Below are positions 2,726 through 10,790 of a DNA stretch of 10,790 bases, piece by piece. The position numbers and the translations under genes are program-made. The stretch is from Verrucomicrobiales bacterium (GTDB taxonomy: Bacteria; Verrucomicrobiota; Verrucomicrobiia; Verrucomicrobiales; DEV007): assembly GCA_023253615.1 (NCBI GenBank), contig JALRFZ010000372.1, positions 1-10,790 of the forward strand. Reading direction: 5' to 3'. The notes beneath the pieces are model-generated. The model did no database searches. It saw only the letters and a program-made list of their open reading frames with translations, and was not told the origin of the DNA. Numbering within the stretch: position 1 is the stretch's first letter; each line of letters opens with the position of its first letter.

Positions 2726-2753
2726 TGGCCGGACCCGACGGCGGGGCCGGTCA
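2726..2753. terminator. GC-rich hairpin between convergent genes
   Basis: TGGCCGG (2726-2732) pairs with CCGGTCA (2747-2753) with one G-T wobble, and CCC/GGG extend the stem inside after a mismatch. The hairpin spans the 36-base gap between the lysine-rich gene and the sulfatase and includes the sulfatase stop codon. There is no T-tract on either side, so it is a weak terminator candidate that could serve both converging transcripts. Confidence 0.35.
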
Positions 2754-4220
2754 ATAATCCGCTCCGCGCAGGCTCGCGCTGACGCTGCCAAGCCAGCCTT
2801 CCAGCCCGGTCGAGAGGTCTTGGAGGATCTCGGGATACTGCTTCGAGACATCTTTCCTCTCGCGCGGATCGGTGGTGAGGTTGTAGAGCGTCCAGCGCAC
2901 CTTCTCTCCGCTCGTGCCGGAGATGCGGTGGATCTTCCAGTCGCCGGAGATCCAGGCGGCATGACCGGCGAAGACATCCCCGGGGAACTTGTGTTTGGGG
3001 ATTTTTTCGACGCGTCGGGTGACCCGTTCGACCTTGTTGTCGCTCCAGTTTTCGATGGTCGGCAACACCTTCGTGACGACACCTCCGGGATTCGTGAACT
3101 GTCCGGGAACGCCCGCATTCCAGAAGCCGAGGGGCGCGGTGCGGACCTGCATTTCCCCGCGGATCAGCGGCACGAGGCTGATGCCATCGAGGGGGCGCCC
3201 CCCGGTGTCGTCGATACCCGCGATTTCCATCAAGGTCGGGAAGATATCGACGGTGCCGCAGCGGACGGGTGTCGTATTGGCGGACGGGATTGCGGCGGGC
3301 CACTCGATGAAGGCGGGCACGCGCAGACCACCCTCGTAGAGGACGTGCTTGCCCCCACGGGCGTCGCCGGCATCGCCGACGTTGAGCGCTCCGTTGTCAC
3401 TGCAATACCAGAGGAGGGTGTTGTCGCGCAGGCCGAGCTCGGCGAGAGTCTCGCGGATTTTCCCAAAGGCGAGATCCATGCCGGTGATCTCGCCGTAAAA
3501 TTCGCGCTCGCGCTTCGAGAGACCGGCGTAGAGGGCGGCGAGCCCGGGAGCGGCATGGTGGGGCAGGTGGGGCGCGCCGAACCAAACCATCGCGAAGATC
3601 GGTGACTCGCCCGCGGCCTGTTGGCGGATCCAGTCGATGGCGAGATCGGCGACGACCATGCTGCCCTCGCCTTTCAATTTCAGGGGGCGTCCCTGGTCGC
3701 TCAACTCGGGATTGTGATCAAAGAAATTCGACGTGCTGACCCAGCGGTCGAAGCCGTTCGCACCGGGATTGACGGGGCTGTCGGCGCGGATCGACCCGAG
3801 GTGCCACTTTCCGAAGTGCCCGGTGACGTAGCCTTCGCGTTTCAGGATCTCGGCGAGGGTGATCTCCTGCGGTCGGATGGGATGGCCCCAGCTGAAGACG
3901 CCCATGCGGTTCGGATGTCGGCCCGTGAGGACGCTCGCGCGGGTCGGCGAGCAGGAAGGGGCGGCCGCATAGAAATGATCGAGACGCAGCCCCGAGCCGG
4001 CGGCGGCGTCGAGGTGGGGTGTCTTCAGATGCGGGTGGCCGTTGTAGCCGACATCCCCCCAGCCCTGGTCGTCGGCCATCACGAGGACGATGTGAGGGCG
4101 TTTCAGCTGACTTTCGTTCGCGCCCGCGGGCTCCTTCTTTTTGCCGGACTCCACCGCCCCCGCCGGAAGGCCCGGGACGACGACCGCGAGGAGAATGAGA
4201 ATGGAAAGGAGAAACCGCAT
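2751..4220 (-). CDS. Secreted type I (formylglycine) sulfatase, arylsulfatase family
   Basis: Hydrolyses sulfate esters, most likely on sulfated polysaccharide in the periplasm or outside the cell; the exact substrate cannot be read from sequence. The ATG at 4220 gives 489 residues beginning with a signal peptide (MRFLLSILILLAVVV, cleavage near residue 22). The frame is open to a TTG at 4298, but that extension has no family character. Visible residues: metal-binding D50-D51 in MADDQGWGD, the CSPTR motif with C90 (codon 3951-3953) that is converted to formylglycine, R94, the GKWH motif (K138, H140), a His-containing PHLPHH stretch, SDNG (D275, N276) and the following K291. The C-terminal LYNLTTDPRERKDVS stretch is typical of the family. 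The length is normal and no core residue is missing. CSPTR fits maturation by a formylglycine-generating or anaerobic maturase enzyme, not encoded here. It follows the ATPase gene by 93 bases, with no clear ribosome-binding site. Confidence 0.95.
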   Translation of the reverse strand: MRFLLSILILLAVVVPGLPAGAVESGKKKEPAGANESQLKRPHIVLVMADDQGWGDVGYNGHPHLKTPHLDAAAGSGLRLDHFYAAAPSCSPTRASVLTGRHPNRMGVFSWGHPIRPQEITLAEILKREGYVTGHFGKWHLGSIRADSPVNPGANGFDRWVSTSNFFDHNPELSDQGRPLKLKGEGSMVVADLAIDWIRQQAAGESPIFAMVWFGAPHLPHHAAPGLAALYAGLSKREREFYGEITGMDLAFGKIRETLAELGLRDNTLLWYCSDNGALNVGDAGDARGGKHVLYEGGLRVPAFIEWPAAIPSANTTPVRCGTVDIFPTLMEIAGIDDTGGRPLDGISLVPLIRGEMQVRTAPLGFWNAGVPGQFTNPGGVVTKVLPTIENWSDNKVERVTRRVEKIPKHKFPGDVFAGHAAWISGDWKIHRISGTSGEKVRWTLYNLTTDPRERKDVSKQYPEILQDLSTGLEGWLGSVSASLRGADY

Positions 4221-4239
4221 GAGAAGGCAATCGGACGTC

Positions 4240-4264
4240 TTCCGGATCCTGTAACGATCCGGAA
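4240..4264. repeat. Perfect inverted repeat upstream of the sulfatase start
   Basis: TTCCGGATC (4240-4248) and GATCCGGAA (4256-4264) form a perfect 9-bp palindrome around a 7-base spacer. It lies 20 bases upstream of the sulfatase ATG, in the 93-base gap after the ATPase gene. No T-tract follows it in the direction of transcription, so it does not look like an intrinsic terminator. It could be a binding site for a dimeric regulator of the sulfatase, or an RNA hairpin in the leader. The structure is seen directly; the function is inferred. Confidence 0.5.
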
Positions 4265-4313
4265 AGGAGAAGCTTTTCCCGAAATCAGTCTCCTGCAACC
4301 GAAAGATGCCTTT

Positions 4314-6737
4314 TCAGAGTTCGATGCGGTGCCCTCCGAGGAGAGCGGCGTGGGCGGGATGGCAGGTGAAAAGGACGACTTGTTTGTCCCCCGCGAATTG
4401 CCCCAGGAGAGCGGCGGCGTCGGCCTGGCGGTCGGGATCGAGATCGACGAAAGGATCGTCGAGGAGGAGGAATCCATGGCGTCCTTCGAGGAACCAGCGG
4501 GCCATCGAGAGACGCAGGGCGAGCCCGAGCGAGGCCCGGGTGCCGGCGGAAAGCAGGGCGAAGGGAATGGCGGTCGAATCGGCCCGCGCCGCTTTGGAGA
4601 GGTCGGGCGTGAGACCCTGATATCGATCGCGGGTGAGCGGGGCGAGGACTTCGGCGAGGTGGGTGTGCCAGGGGGCGAGGGTGTCGGCGTCGAGCTCGGC
4701 GCGGAGTTGATCGTATTCACGACGGATGCGGCGGATCGCTTCCCCCTCGCGTCGGGCGCGGGTCAGGGCCGCGTTGGCGAGATCGAGACGCTCCATGGCA
4801 TCGGCGGGTTCGAAAGCCGGTGCGGTGGCGACGAGTTCGGCTTTTTCCAACTGCAGTTGATGCAGTTCGCCCCGGTGTTGTTCGAGCTCGCTCCGTTTGA
4901 TGCGGAAGTCCCGGAGAAACGAGGCCGCGTCGGGAGTGCCCTCGGGCAGAGGATGGAGCGCCTCCATTTTCTGTTTCACCACCTTGTGCGAGGCGCGCAG
5001 ATCGGCGAGTTGATCGAGCAATTCATCGGCGCTGACAAAATCGCGTTCCCAAGCGGCCAGTTTCTGACGCAGGGAAGCGATCTCGCGGGTCGCGGTGTTG
5101 ATCTCGCTTTCGGTGCGGGCGTTGTCCGCGGAGATCTCTCCGAGGGGGCGGGCCGGGGCAGCACCACCGCCGGAGAGCCGCTCGCATTCGGCCTGCCATT
5201 CGCCGAGAGTGCGCGATCCGAGGAGGTCGGCGAGCTGGCGCTCGAGCAGGGCGATACGATGGGCGATCTCTTTCGCGCCGGCATGCTTTTGACGTGCGGC
5301 GGCGGGATCCTCGACACCGAGGGCCGCGAGGAGTGCCGTCATCTCGTCGGCGAGTTCGCGGAGCCGGGTCTCGTCCGCGGCGAGGTCGATCTCGGCGGAG
5401 CTCACTTCGATCTCCCAGGCTCCGTCGGGATCACGCAACGAGACACGTCCCCCGGCTTCGAAGGTCACCTCTTTTCCCGCGACGATCTCGCGGGGCAGGG
5501 TGGCATCGACTCCACTGCGGGTCTCGATACGCCAGGTGCCGGCCGCGGCGAGGCGCACCCGGAGCCGGGCGGCTTCGAGCCGGGTGTGGAGCCGGTCGCG
5601 CTCGCGCTCGATCGTCTCGAGCCGTGGCATGGCTGTGGGATCGATCTGGCCGAGGGCCGCGAGTTCGACTTTTGCGGCAGTGAGTGCGGTCTGGATCTTG
5701 GCGGCGTCCTCGAGGAGGCGGCGGGTCTTTTCGGCGGACTCCCAGGCTTTGGCGCGGGTCAGTTCCTCTCCGAGATGGACGAACTTTTCCCGCGACCGGG
5801 AAAGCAGCGTCTCCTGCTCCTGCACACGATTCGCGACGACGGGCCATTCCTGCGAGACTTCCTTCAGGCCTTTGCCGCGGGATTCAACTCCGGCGAGTTC
5901 GGCGTCGAGCTGGAGACGGACCTCCGCGTCGCGGGCCACCACCTCTTGCGCGGTGATCCACTCGGCGAGACACGCGTTCCGGCGGTGCGCCCGGTGGACT
6001 TTCGCATTCAGCGCATCGAGGCGGCGGTAATACTGTTCGGCTTCCTCGTAGGCGATGCGTGCGGCCTCTCTTTCATACCAGGCCGTCACGATCGAGCCGG
6101 CTCCGCGCATCCACCGCTGGTCGAGTCCTCGATTGCCTTCGGGGCGGTTCAGATCGACATCCCAGCGTTCGTATGCCGCCTTGTAGCGGGCTTCGAGGAG
6201 GGTGGAGAGTTTTTCGAGGGAGACTCCGTCGGTTTCGAAAACAGCACGGCGGAGACGCTCGTTCAATTCTCCGAGATCCCCTCCATCGGCGAGCCGGTCG
6301 AGGCTCTTTCCGATTTCGCCCTGGGCCGAAAAAAGGGCGTGATCCCACGTGCCGCGCGTGAGCCCGAGCAGCCGGCCGAGAGCTTCCTCGACCGCCGGTC
6401 CATCGGTGACGAGCCCTCCGTCGGGCCGGGTCAGTTCCGACGCGGAATTGCCGGGAGACCAACGTTTCGAAAGCCTCCACACGTTTTCACCTTCGGCCAG
6501 ATCGAGCGAGACCCGGATCGTGTCGCCACCGCCGAGCGGCAGGTAGGGCAGCACTTCGCCCTCGGCCTCGCGTTTGCCCAGTTTGGTCGGCACGAGCAAG
6601 GCCTGGCGCAGGGCGCGGCGCAAGGTCGATTTTCCCGCCTCGTTCGCGCCGAGCACGACATTGAGCCCGGGCTCGAACCGCAGCTCGCGATCGACCGTGC
6701 CAGCGAAAGGATGGAGTTGGAGACGTCGCAGGATCAT
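4314..6737 (-). CDS. SbcC/Rad50/YhaN-like SMC-type ATPase, without zinc hook
   Basis: An 807-residue ABC/SMC-type ATPase, expected to drive DNA end processing with the phosphoesterase encoded just before it. Domains in order: N-terminal half ATPase with Walker A GANEAGKST (residues 30-38) and Q-loop LFSAQGEIG (about 135-143); a long Glu/Arg/Leu-rich coiled coil (about 170-390); a beta-rich insert (about 391-447, DNA 5397-5567); a second coiled coil (about 450-690); and the C-terminal half ATPase with signature LLSAGT (728-733), Walker B FLLLDDPF (756-763), D-loop DLDPD and a TCHP stretch. No CxxC zinc hook is present at the apex, and the protein is shorter than E. coli SbcC (about 1050 residues), so it is closer to the YhaN type. 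The start is fixed by AAGGAGG seven bases upstream and by the ATGA overlap with the previous gene. RecF-like or YhaN-like are alternative family labels. Confidence 0.92.
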   Translation of the reverse strand: MILRRLQLHPFAGTVDRELRFEPGLNVVLGANEAGKSTLRRALRQALLVPTKLGKREAEGEVLPYLPLGGGDTIRVSLDLAEGENVWRLSKRWSPGNSASELTRPDGGLVTDGPAVEEALGRLLGLTRGTWDHALFSAQGEIGKSLDRLADGGDLGELNERLRRAVFETDGVSLEKLSTLLEARYKAAYERWDVDLNRPEGNRGLDQRWMRGAGSIVTAWYEREAARIAYEEAEQYYRRLDALNAKVHRAHRRNACLAEWITAQEVVARDAEVRLQLDAELAGVESRGKGLKEVSQEWPVVANRVQEQETLLSRSREKFVHLGEELTRAKAWESAEKTRRLLEDAAKIQTALTAAKVELAALGQIDPTAMPRLETIERERDRLHTRLEAARLRVRLAAAGTWRIETRSGVDATLPREIVAGKEVTFEAGGRVSLRDPDGAWEIEVSSAEIDLAADETRLRELADEMTALLAALGVEDPAAARQKHAGAKEIAHRIALLERQLADLLGSRTLGEWQAECERLSGGGAAPARPLGEISADNARTESEINTATREIASLRQKLAAWERDFVSADELLDQLADLRASHKVVKQKMEALHPLPEGTPDAASFLRDFRIKRSELEQHRGELHQLQLEKAELVATAPAFEPADAMERLDLANAALTRARREGEAIRRIRREYDQLRAELDADTLAPWHTHLAEVLAPLTRDRYQGLTPDLSKAARADSTAIPFALLSAGTRASLGLALRLSMARWFLEGRHGFLLLDDPFVDLDPDRQADAAALLGQFAGDKQVVLFTCHPAHAALLGGHRIEL

Positions 6738-7864
6738 GACCGGGCCTCCTTCACCAGTTCCCAGGCGAGTTGCAGGGCGTCGGCGTCCTCCATGGATTCC
6801 GCGAGCCCTCCGAGGAGGCGGTGCGGAAAGGAACCGATCGTGTATTCGCGTCCGATGTCTGCCGCGCTGATCTCGCGCTGCAATCCCGCGAGATCTGTTT
6901 CAAGATAGAGGACCGATTTTTCCAGCTCCGCGATCCATTCACCACGGGTGTCGTAGAGGTCGCCCGCGAGGCGTCCCGAGAGGCTCAATTTCACGAGATC
7001 CCGGTCCGGCCCGGAGGTGGTGAGCGAGGTTTTGAGCGCCTCAAGATCCGCCTCGTTCCGGAGGATTTTGGTCAGGGTGTGGAATTTGAACGAGCCGGTG
7101 CGCACGGACTCGCCCCGCACCGAGCCGTCCGGCCCGAGCTCTAGGATCAAGGCGTAACCCTCGTGCCGGCAGTCGAATCCATCGGGCTCGGGCGTCGCGG
7201 GATAGAGGATGCGATGGTTGGTGAATTCCTCCAGATCCGGGTAGCGGATGTGGGTGTGGCCGAGGAGCCAGAGATCGAGACCGCTCGCCTCGAGTTCCTT
7301 CCGTTTCATCGGAAAGTAGTCACCTTCGAAGTCGGGCGAGAGCCCCTCGAGGCTGCCGTGGGCGACGCCGATGCGGCGAACCTCGTCGGGCAGATCGAGT
7401 TCGGCGAGGGCCTCCGGCACCCATCCGACCGCATGGGTCTGCGAATGTCTCGATCCACAGACGCCGGGAAAAATCACCAGGGGGATGCCCTGGTCGCGCA
7501 GGTCGCAGGGGGTCTCGCGTCGCAGGAGGTGATGGCGCTCGCCAAGGGCATCGACGAAGCCGGGCCAGAGGGGATCCTCCTCCTGCGCATAGTCATGATT
7601 GCCCGGCAGCACCACGACGACACCTTCGAAGGCCGCGAGAATCGTCGCGGCCTCACGCACGAGGCTCTTGGGCACGCGCGGGGTGTCGAAGAGATCGCCG
7701 GCGATCACGAAGACGTCGCAGGCACGCTCGCGGGCGATCGCCACCATTCCGCGGAGGCACTCGATCCGGCGCGCGACGAGTCGCTCGCGCAGGGCGGGCG
7801 TGTAGCCGCCGCGGGTGAATTTGAGGCCGAGGTGGAGGTCGGCGGTGTGGAAAAGGCGGGTCAT
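6734..7864 (-). CDS. SbcD/Mre11/YhaO-like DNA exonuclease subunit (calcineurin-like phosphoesterase)
   Basis: A 376-residue two-metal phosphoesterase expected to cut DNA ends as the nuclease partner of the ATPase encoded next. All core motifs are visible: D9 and H11 in TADLHLG, D57 in GDLFD, N89-H90 in PGNHD, H169 in VAHGS, and H203/H205 in GHTH. These supply the metal ligands and active-site residues of the Mre11 family. After the catalytic domain (about 1-235) comes a capping region with SFKFHTL, as in YhaO/SbcD proteins, and a C-terminal helical stretch rich in Leu, Glu and Ala that may contact the ATPase coiled-coil base. The length fits YhaO/SbcD. The start is ATG 7864, where TRLFHTADLH begins at the usual place; no Shine-Dalgarno is evident. 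The stop overlaps the ATPase start (ATGA). A 142-base gap separates it from the exonuclease gene upstream, so its own promoter may lie there. Confidence 0.94.
   Translation of the reverse strand: MTRLFHTADLHLGLKFTRGGYTPALRERLVARRIECLRGMVAIARERACDVFVIAGDLFDTPRVPKSLVREAATILAAFEGVVVVLPGNHDYAQEEDPLWPGFVDALGERHHLLRRETPCDLRDQGIPLVIFPGVCGSRHSQTHAVGWVPEALAELDLPDEVRRIGVAHGSLEGLSPDFEGDYFPMKRKELEASGLDLWLLGHTHIRYPDLEEFTNHRILYPATPEPDGFDCRHEGYALILELGPDGSVRGESVRTGSFKFHTLTKILRNEADLEALKTSLTTSGPDRDLVKLSLSGRLAGDLYDTRGEWIAELEKSVLYLETDLAGLQREISAADIGREYTIGSFPHRLLGGLAESMEDADALQLAWELVKEARS
6745..6751 (-). promoter_or_regulatory. Strong ribosome-binding site for the SbcC-like gene
   Basis: On the - strand AAGGAGG lies inside the end of the phosphoesterase gene with a 7-base spacer before the ATG at 6737. 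It fixes that start. Together with the ATGA overlap at 6734-6737 it indicates translational coupling, fitting a fixed-ratio complex. It is the best Shine-Dalgarno in the window; most other starts here have a weak one or none. Confidence 0.8.
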
Positions 7865-8006
7865 GCGGGGATCGGGGGGCGGATCAGGTTAGCGGGTGAG
7901 GGGGGCGGCGCAAGTCCCGCTTCCCGTGGGCGTGGCAGTTATCTTCGCACAGGGGGTGGGACATCCGCGGCCCCTCCGGTGTCTTTTCCGGAAAAAAGGA
8001 TCGGCG

Positions 8007-8558
8007 TCACTGCGGCAAACGCCAATCGACCGTCACCTCGAGACTCTGGTTGAAGCGGTTCCGGTATTTCACGAGGCCGTGCCGGGCACCGTATTCGTGG
8101 ACCATCTTCGTCACCTTCACGTCGAAACAGCAATATTCGGCGATGGCCATGATCTTGCCCTCCTGCCACCATTTGATCGCATCGGTGCCGACCGCGGTCT
8201 TGCTCTCCCCGAGGGTCTCGCCCGCGACCGCGTCGAGCTTGGGACGATGTTGCAGCACTTTTTCGAGATCCACCATCAGGTCGAGATTATGGGTGTGCTC
8301 GCGCAGATCGAGCACGGTGTATCCCATCAGCACCTCGTAGTCGAAATAGAGGTGGTTGAATCCGATGACGAGGTCGGCCGCGCAGAGTTCGTCGATCAAG
8401 GCCTGCACGTTCGACTCGTCGTAGATCATGTAGCGGTTCAGCGCCGTGCTGAAGGTGACCCCGACCGACATCTTCATGTCCGCCTTGCGATCCCAGCCCC
8501 CCACGTCGTTGGCGGAGCGCTGGGTCTCGAGGTCGAAATAGACGAAATTCTCGGCCAT
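8007..8558 (-). CDS. DEDDy-type RNase H-fold 3'-5' exonuclease (YprB-like domain)
   Basis: A 183-residue, single-domain predicted exonuclease. The four acidic residues of the DEDD superfamily are visible: D9 and E11 in VYFDLET, D73 in GFNHLYFD, and D146 in YCCFDVKVT. Y142 lies four residues before D146, giving the DEDDy pattern. The GFNHLYFD and DLM...LEKVL stretches resemble the YprB-like ribonuclease H family, whose members are predicted 3'-5' exonucleases on RNA or DNA; the substrate is not known from sequence. The ATG at 8558 is chosen because motif I then lies at the normal distance from the N-terminus; the open frame farther upstream runs into the GH57 gene. The start is 13 bases after the GH57 stop, so the two are probably cotranscribed and may be coupled. 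No strong ribosome-binding site is present. A structural role in a larger helicase-nuclease system is possible, but no helicase gene lies nearby. Confidence 0.85.
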   Translation of the reverse strand: MAENFVYFDLETQRSANDVGGWDRKADMKMSVGVTFSTALNRYMIYDESNVQALIDELCAADLVIGFNHLYFDYEVLMGYTVLDLREHTHNLDLMVDLEKVLQHRPKLDAVAGETLGESKTAVGTDAIKWWQEGKIMAIAEYCCFDVKVTKMVHEYGARHGLVKYRNRFNQSLEVTVDWRLPQ

Positions 8559-8571
8559 GGTCCCCGGCGGA

Positions 8572-10131
8572 TCAGGCGTAGGGTTCGTAGAGATTCCACG
8601 GCAGGTCGGAGTAGACCGGATCCGCTTCCTCGATCTGCGAGAGAAGATCCCCTCCCGCATCCGCCCGCGCCGAGACCGCCCGGACCTGGTCGAACCGTTC
8701 GAGATGCTCCCGGGTGCGGCGCTCGGCGTAGCCGCGCGAAGGCTCGTTCTTCATCAGGAAGGCCCAGTCGCTCGATTGCGCGAGGAGGAGTTCTTTCGTC
8801 ATCAGTTCGATGCAGCGCTGCCGGTGCGTCGCGGCTCCCTCGGGCATGCCGGTGCGGTCGTCTTCGTAGAGCTTCACGAAACGGGCGAGCTGCTCGGCGC
8901 GCTTCTGGATCTCCTCGTTGGTCCAGTTGTTTTCCTCGCTCGTCCACGTCTCGAAGTAGCCGCCCTCTCCCCACGACGAGGAAACGGGCGCGGCGGCAGG
9001 GAATTCGAGCCCCTGGCCTGAGGCGAGATGCAGCCCCGGGGTGGTGAATGCGAAATCACTGCGCTGCGCCGCCTTGCGGAAGAGGCGCTCGAGGAATTCC
9101 GTGCCCTCGTACCACCAGTGGCCGAAGAGGTCCGCATCAAAGGCGCAGACGACGAGAGGATTTTCCACCCCTTCCGCTTCGAGAGCGGCGAGCTGGGCGC
9201 CCCGGCTGGCGATGAAGCGCACCGAATGCTCCTCGAGGGCGCGGGAGGCGAGCTCGGGGTCGTAGACGAGGCTCTCATCTTCCTCGCGTGCGATCCGGTA
9301 ATACTTGATCCCCGTGAACTGGCGCTGACCGCTCTCCCCGAGGTATTCCCGGAGGTATTCGATCGGTGCCTCCAAGCCGATGTCGCGGAAGAAATCACGG
9401 TATCGCCCGTCGCCGGGGAAACCTTCATCGGCATTCCAGATCTCGCTGCTGGACGCCTGATCGCGGCCGAAGACGACGAGCCCCTCGGCGGTCACGCCGG
9501 GCGTGAAGGGAAATGCCTCGCTCGCCTGGGGGGCGGTCGTCAGGCCATGCTCCTCGACGAGGGTCCAATCGATGCCCTCGCGTTTCAGAATCTGGCCGAT
9601 TGCCGGGGCATAGGCGCATTCGGGCAGCCAGAAGCCCCGCGGCATGCGGCCGAAGCATTGCACATACTGGCGGATGCCGAGGCGCACCTGGGCCTGCACC
9701 GATTCCGGCACGCGCATCAGCAGCGGGAGCAGGCCGTGCGTTGCCGCGCTGGCGGTGAGTTCGACATGTCCGCTGTCGCGCAGGTCCGCGTAAGCGCGGA
9801 CGAGGTCGCATTGACACTCGTCGACATAGAGCGATCGCAGCCGGTGGAGACTCGCCTCGTAGCGGACCGCGAGATCGCGTTTGCCGGTGATGTCGCCGCG
9901 CTCGACTTCGTCGCGACAGAGCCGGAGGGTGCGGTCGAGATAGGCGATGGTGCGGCGCCGCAGCACCCGGTCGCGCCACATCGCGAGCAGGGTGGGGGAA
10001 AGATCGACGGTCAGGCGGAAGGGCACGCCTTCTCCGCGCAGACGGAAGAGCATTTCGAGCAGCGGCAGATGCGTCTCGACCACGGTGCTGTGCAGCCAAT
10101 CCTCCTCGAGGCAATGCGGCAGCTCGGGCGA
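8572..10131 (-). CDS. GH57 1,4-alpha-glucan branching enzyme (DUF1957 family), 5' end missing at a junction
   Basis: Makes alpha-1,6 branches in glycogen-like alpha-glucan. About 519 residues of recognisable protein are present, from PELPHCLEEDWL to the stop at 8572. Visible features are the early TVDLSPTLL stretch, FWLPECAY with the presumed nucleophile Glu (codon 9619-9621), CAFDADLFGHWW with the presumed acid/base Asp (codon 9136-9138), and SSWGEGGYFETW. The C-terminal helical DUF1957 region carries the ELLLAQSSDWAF and HLERF stretches typical of the family. The family normally begins about 15-20 residues earlier with a GYF-LVLHAHLPFVR-type segment that holds the first conserved His motif. 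That segment is absent: upstream of about 10131 the frame enters the antisense of an aldehyde dehydrogenase. The frame stays open to a GTG at 10404 by chance, and a GTG at 10143 could nominally start translation, but neither restores the family N-terminus. As it stands the product is probably inactive. Confidence 0.93.
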   Translation of the reverse strand, partial: SPELPHCLEEDWLHSTVVETHLPLLEMLFRLRGEGVPFRLTVDLSPTLLAMWRDRVLRRRTIAYLDRTLRLCRDEVERGDITGKRDLAVRYEASLHRLRSLYVDECQCDLVRAYADLRDSGHVELTASAATHGLLPLLMRVPESVQAQVRLGIRQYVQCFGRMPRGFWLPECAYAPAIGQILKREGIDWTLVEEHGLTTAPQASEAFPFTPGVTAEGLVVFGRDQASSSEIWNADEGFPGDGRYRDFFRDIGLEAPIEYLREYLGESGQRQFTGIKYYRIAREEDESLVYDPELASRALEEHSVRFIASRGAQLAALEAEGVENPLVVCAFDADLFGHWWYEGTEFLERLFRKAAQRSDFAFTTPGLHLASGQGLEFPAAAPVSSSWGEGGYFETWTSEENNWTNEEIQKRAEQLARFVKLYEDDRTGMPEGAATHRQRCIELMTKELLLAQSSDWAFLMKNEPSRGYAERRTREHLERFDQVRAVSARADAGGDLLSQIEEADPVYSDLPWNLYEPYA

Positions 10132-10138
10132 GACGATG
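10121..10138. other. Head-to-head junction of two 5'-truncated genes (probable chimeric join)
   Basis: Reading leftward on the - strand, GH57 homology ends at the SPE of its N-terminal region (codons 10123-10131). Reading rightward on the + strand, aldehyde dehydrogenase homology begins at SSGET (codons 10121-10135). The two homologies overlap or abut within about ten bases, leaving no room for either gene's start codon, ribosome-binding site or promoter. Codon choice changes here as well. A misassembly or a short-homology recombination event would leave this pattern. Confidence 0.75.
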
Positions 10139-10790
10139 TCCACGCTCGACCCGGGCACGGGCGAGCCGGTCGCGGAGGTCTGCGTGCTCGGAGCGGCCGA
10201 CGTCGACAGGGCCGTGAAGGCCGCGGCGGAGGCGTTCCGGACGTCGGGCTGGGCCACGATGACGCCGAACGAGCGCGGCGCGAAGCTGCAACGGCTCGCC
10301 GATGCGGTCGAGAAGCACAAGAAGGTCATCGGGCAGATCGAGTCGCTCGATGCCGGCAAGATCCTCTCCCAGGCCGAGGGGGACGTCCAGAACTTCATCG
10401 ACACGCTTCGTTACTTCACCGACATGGCCCAGCACGTGCAGCGGCGAAACGTCCTCGCCGTCGCCGGCCACGAGGCCTGGACGGTGCGGCACCCGTGGGG
10501 GCCGTGTGGCTTCATCTTCCCGTGGAACTTCCCCTTCCTGCTGATCGGCTGGGGCGTGTCGCCGGCGCTCGCCGCGGGCAATACGGTCGTGATCAAGCCG
10601 GCCGAGGACACGCCGCTCTCGGCGATCTACCTCGCGCGGCTCGCCCGTGAGGTCGGGATTCCGGACGGCGTGGTCAACGTCATCCCGGGCACGGGTGCGG
10701 GGGCCGGGGCCGCGCTCTCCGCCCATCCGGGCATCCGTCGGATGAGCTTCACGGGCTCGCCCGAGGTCGGGCGGCTCGTCGGTGAGGCGT
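10136..10790 (+). CDS. Aldehyde dehydrogenase (NAD(P)+-dependent), truncated at both ends
   Basis: Oxidises an aldehyde to the acid with NAD(P)+; the substrate cannot be assigned. Homology can be followed from about 10124 (SGETMSTLDPGTGEPVAEV, matching the family's SGxT-x-NPATGE region) to the window end at FTGSPEVGRLVGEA, about 220 residues of a normal ~490. Visible motifs are ESLDAGK, the LRYF helix, GPCGFIFPWNFP with the oxyanion-hole Asn (codon 10526-10528), PALAAGNTVVIKPAE with the cofactor-binding Lys, GVVNVIPGTG, and FTGSPEVG of the Rossmann fold. The catalytic Glu and Cys lie beyond the window. An in-frame ATG exists at 10136, but the protein would lack about 30-40 N-terminal residues that the family has, so this is not a natural start. 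All 7 Lys codons are AAG and all 12 Glu codons are GAG, unlike the genes to the left. It joins the GH57 gene head to head. Confidence 0.93.
   Translation, partial: MSTLDPGTGEPVAEVCVLGAADVDRAVKAAAEAFRTSGWATMTPNERGAKLQRLADAVEKHKKVIGQIESLDAGKILSQAEGDVQNFIDTLRYFTDMAQHVQRRNVLAVAGHEAWTVRHPWGPCGFIFPWNFPFLLIGWGVSPALAAGNTVVIKPAEDTPLSAIYLARLAREVGIPDGVVNVIPGTGAGAGAALSAHPGIRRMSFTGSPEVGRLVGEA

Follow-up and report, generated by a model that had tools for sequence, protein, structure and literature searches.

The window analyzed here is an entire contig (C170, 10,790 nt). It belongs to a draft genome that totals 5.0 Mb, is split into 802 contigs, and has an estimated completeness of 84.7% and contamination of 4.65%. 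The binned organism is presumed to belong to Verrucomicrobiota on the basis of one genome of its order (G043) that carries this label. The genus was represented by 33 genomes, the one analyzed here among them (i.e., 32 congeners), and a further 23 genomes came from elsewhere in the family and order. Genes for a sulfatase and for Rad50/AAA-like, SbcD-like and exonuclease-like proteins occupy positions 2751–8572 on the minus strand. They are followed by a GH57 branching-enzyme-like gene (8572–10128, minus strand) and a fragment of an aldehyde dehydrogenase gene (10129–10790, plus strand). As the first-pass annotation had remarked, these last two genes meet oddly, head to head, and both encode proteins without their N-termini; the Pfam profiles, a second contig of the bin (C628) and the relatives of the two proteins all confirmed this.

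The stretch from 2751 to 10125 was collinear with all three congeners that we fetched at length, and in these the sulfatase, Rad50/AAA-like, SbcD-like and exonuclease-like genes form a conserved block after GH57. The contig from at least position 2751 to 10128 is DNA native to the binned organism. Queries with the Mpl ligase gene (1–1236) and with a frame of 178 residues (1608–2144) drew a blank in the DNA retrieved from these three congeners. At the left end of the contig, positions 1–259 overlapped the right end of contig C112 (5703–5961) with 95% identity and 14 differences; 11 of the 13 changed codons were synonymous. Judged by these substitutions, the bin probably contains two strains, or two species, that have diverged.

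The GH57 protein matched PF03065 (Glyco_hydro_57) with 94.4 bits and PF09210 (BE_C) with 69.3 bits, and both domains expected of a GH57 1,4-alpha-glucan branching enzyme are therefore present in the window copy. The best NCBIfam models, NF041133 and NF041566, scored far under their cut-offs. All 33 genomes of the genus, counting the one analyzed here, gave a GH57 match, with identity of up to 92% and with G022 contributing only a weak match of 47 residues; the 23 genomes from elsewhere in the family and order gave none. The gene thus resembles the branching enzymes in its domains and genus-wide orthologues, whereas the window copy differs from them in lacking the start, with the remainder intact. 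In one congener (G031), GH57 was matched on two contigs, C56 (32–1576) and C82 (10047–10427), both with 73% identity, which suggests that in this genome, too, a contig end is split or duplicated at GH57.

The native continuation of the GH57 gene was located within the bin, on contig C628 (3538 nt). This contig opens with window positions 9981–10128 (plus strand), and its first 148 nt are identical to the window at 147 of 148 bases. The sole mismatch, at 10060, is synonymous (Leu, CTG/CTC). Past base 148, C628 leaves the window, reading GTGCC where the window reads CGAGA, and an intact GH57 start lies 54 nt (18 codons, MSRNCSIILHAHIPWVRH) past the join. Because the native sequence stops at 10128, the last native base of GH57, the window copy lacks its first 18 codons. 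The HxHxP motif is absent from the C170 copy but present on C628 as HAHIP, in agreement with the ~ 15–20 missing residues, including this motif, that had been estimated before. Moving away from GH57 on C628, a gene for an RDD/GYF_2 protein comes next, its end overlapped by the GH57 start, and beyond it lies a gene for a LolC/E-type FtsX permease. C628 is the true neighbour of the C170 GH57 gene, meaning that the continuation of one flank exists elsewhere in the assembly, as is expected of a chimeric contig. The last ~ 109 nt of C628 (3430–3538) recur inside contig C519 (2031–2139) with 97% identity, a repeat at the point where C628 stops. We also considered deriving the k-mer length of the assembler from the C170/C628 overlap (79 identical bases, then the mismatch) and rejected this, since two other end matches in the bin are likewise imperfect, with 95% identity over 259 nt and 97% over 109 nt, and show no single k.

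A join had been placed within 10121–10138, and it indeed falls there, between the last base identical to native GH57 DNA (10128) and the first foreign base (10129). Relatives of the dehydrogenase provided the view from the opposite side. In 22 such relatives, 29–54 of 60 positions matched from 10130 on and 13–26 of 60 matched to the left of 10130 (raw counts), and the same 22 loci shared 0–4 nt with the window ending at 10128. The drop in identity left of 10130 and the 0–4 shared nucleotides set the break at 10128/10129, and any microhomology at the join would amount to a few bases at most. The first-pass annotation had proposed a shared 10-mer, TCGGGCGAGA, and this part of it did not stand. 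Native GH57 DNA on C628 runs ...CTCGGG and then GTGCC, and what it has in common with TCGGGCGAGA is only TCGGG, up to 10128. With no more than the first five letters in the native gene, TCGGGCGAGA cannot be the shared stretch.

GH57 loci were built for eleven congeners, of which ten (L018–L027) reach far enough, and one (L028) is cut by the contig end within GH57. The permease–RDD–GH57 order, with an intact GH57 start such as MSRNCSIVLHAHIPWVRH, was kept in all ten far-enough loci, that is, in relatives without the join. When a 120-nt query around the join was used, matches were obtained in 13 of the 32 other congeners. Their GH57-side matches stop between 10119 and 10136, in seven of the 13 at 10127–10128; three congeners (G011, G020 and G031) match 8 nt past the join, and none goes further. 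Congener G014 gave a second match, 24 nt long (96%), to the right-hand part of this query on a different contig. Among the 33 genus genomes, the join itself was seen solely on C170. The plasmid records gave no match to the 181 nt comprising the join and its flanks, and the viral contigs held no exact 22-mer of the join.

The dehydrogenase fragment is cut at its 5′ end by the join and at its 3′ end by the end of the contig. Its protein matched PF00171 (Aldedh) with 244.6 bits, over a curated cut-off of 23, across profile positions 11–223 of 461, and the match stops where the contig ends. This strong match over positions 11–223 makes the fragment a member of the NAD(P)-dependent aldehyde dehydrogenase superfamily, from whose full-length members it differs in being only the N-terminal half, minus the first ~ 35 residues. 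In this superfamily, the catalytic cysteine region lies in the C-terminal half. Of the 25 NCBIfam models shown for the fragment, none reached its cut-off. We inspected the 22 best-ranked of the best 80 loci from named genomes (21 labelled Planctomycetota and one, L052, labelled ‘bacterium’ only), and all 22 have an in-frame ATG 33–38 codons upstream of the codon matching window position 10130. The upstream ATG is probably the true start of the relatives, and the distance agrees with the loss of ~ 30–40 residues anticipated in the first-pass annotation.

The fragment has a planctomycete affinity. The best 80 loci comprised 64 Planctomycetota, eight Verrucomicrobiota, five Pseudomonadota, and one each of Acidobacteriota, Armatimonadota and ungrouped. 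The top identity among them, 90% at the protein level, belonged to Planctomycetaceae bacterium UBA4655, with 86% DNA identity over 660 nt, and the best labelled non-planctomycetes reached 74% (L068, Verrucomicrobia; L080, Armatimonadetes). In a tree of 93 rows (the window, the best 80 loci, and 12 rows drawn from the order and the bin itself), the window row stood as sister to UBA4655 (95/86). The pair lay inside a set of 33 rows (93/96) made up of 31 Planctomycetota and two ungrouped rows, namely the window and a ‘bacterium’ MAG, and all eight Verrucomicrobiota rows fell outside this set. Some Verrucomicrobiota do own this type of dehydrogenase, as indicated by the eight labelled rows among the best 80 and by the best match within the same order (G043, 73%). 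In the planctomycete family of UBA4655, 31 of 72 genomes carry the gene with 74–86% DNA identity (E ≤ 1e-100). The exact donor was sought in these 72 genomes, where the best match had 86% DNA identity.

Within the genus, the fragment protein had at most 43% identity to the 32 congeners among the matches listed. Elsewhere in its own genome, the best-scoring match was on C482 (39%), and C647 gave 41% over a part; the other PF00171 genes of the bin (six matches) are different from the fragment. No near-identical copy of the 662-nt piece was found on the other contigs of the bin, and the rest of its gene presumably ended up in a different bin or in none. The GC3 of the fragment was 0.932, compared to 0.758–0.852 in six other genes of C170 and 0.859–0.927 in seven relatives of the fragment. 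The two C628 genes had GC3 of 0.753 and 0.870, and because the latter value belongs to the native LolC/E gene, composition is weak evidence for a foreign origin. The phylogenetic profiles of the two sides of the join differ. The planctomycete affinity and the identities of at most 43% among the listed congener matches support the earlier caution that everything to the right of about 10130 should not be assumed to come from the same genome. The suggested search of each flank for its natural neighbour led to C628 on the left and to a planctomycete gene with 90% protein identity on the right.

We are highly confident that C170 is a false join between native DNA, up to 10128, and 662 nt of a planctomycete aldehyde dehydrogenase gene. 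The native continuation was found on C628, the gene order is conserved in relatives, and the right flank has a foreign affinity bearing the signature of another phylum, all in support of the chimeric contig suspected in the first-pass annotation. The 662 nt would derive from a different organism, a planctomycete presumably present in the same sample. As for the joining step, a chimeric library molecule may have been closed through a few bases of microhomology, or the assembler may have made a short-overlap join where strains vary and coverage was probably thin. Variation among strains of the bin, seen in the C170/C628 mismatch and in the 95% identity of the C170/C112 overlap, would interrupt the assembly graph and make such joins more likely.

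The same strain variation leaves a small chance that the junction is real in a minor strain. The two copies of the C170/C628 overlap differ by one synonymous base and could therefore represent two strains, one of which truly carries the join; planctomycete DNA would then have moved into the minor strain, replacing or interrupting the GH57 start. The differing allele at 10060 suggests that strain variants may coexist in the bin, and the left end of C170, which overlaps C112 at only 95%, may likewise reflect coexisting sequence variants. Nevertheless, the piece is only part of a gene, truncated at either end and joined with nothing between, and the contig stops 662 nt past the join. Moreover, the join was found in none of the 32 congeners, nor the join with its flanks in plasmid records, and no dehydrogenase this similar appeared in the congeners among the matches listed. 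We consider it similarly improbable that microhomology-mediated joining in such a strain placed the planctomycete dehydrogenase beside a decapitated GH57. If true, the minor-strain junction would be a recent inter-phylum transfer caught beside an unaltered sister haplotype (C628).

An inversion or deletion within one genome through TCGGGCGAGA, which would bring two native genes together head to head, was also raised in the first-pass annotation and is very unlikely. GH57 and the dehydrogenase are indeed oriented divergently and may have a few junction bases in common, but the native GH57 DNA leaves the window at 10129 with only TCGGG shared. Such an event also needs a native dehydrogenase of this type; none was found among the matches listed for the 32 congeners, and the other contigs of the bin hold nothing near-identical to the piece. 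That the two genes form a genuine divergent pair with unusually short starts has a negligible probability. Both frames do have start codons and remain open through the join, but N-terminal parts seen in the relatives (ten GH57 and 22 dehydrogenase loci) are missing from both proteins, and C628, with its intact GH57 start, and the congeners contradict such a pair.

Returning to the false join, two published accounts allow a comparison with known cases. In that of PMC7111523, assemblers are said to seldom make chimeras of two organisms, and the signs given for them are lacking read pairs, or coverage or phylogenetic profiles that differ between the two sides. In that of PMC8201837, misassembly into chimeric contigs is described as rarer than mis-binning. 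C170 resembles the inter-organism chimeric MAG contigs treated in these accounts (PMC7111523, PMC8201837) in its differing phylogenetic profiles across a sharp join, its fragmented draft genome, and the native continuation on another contig. It differs from the chimeras described there (PMC7111523, PMC8201837) in that an overlapping contig from its own bin fixes the join to the base. We regard such an overlapping contig as a criterion stronger than the phylogenetic profile.

The C170 junction is almost certainly an ordinary artefact and no real feature, and it matters for sequence hygiene only. It does illustrate a quick test that requires no reads, in which the remaining contigs of a bin are searched for the native continuation of a broken gene. 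For use, C170 should be trimmed at 10128, dropping the last 662 bases, with C628 taken as its continuation. If kept, these bases would make the genome seem to own a dehydrogenase that was not found in the genus and would give GH57 a false start, and they could pass for gene transfer.
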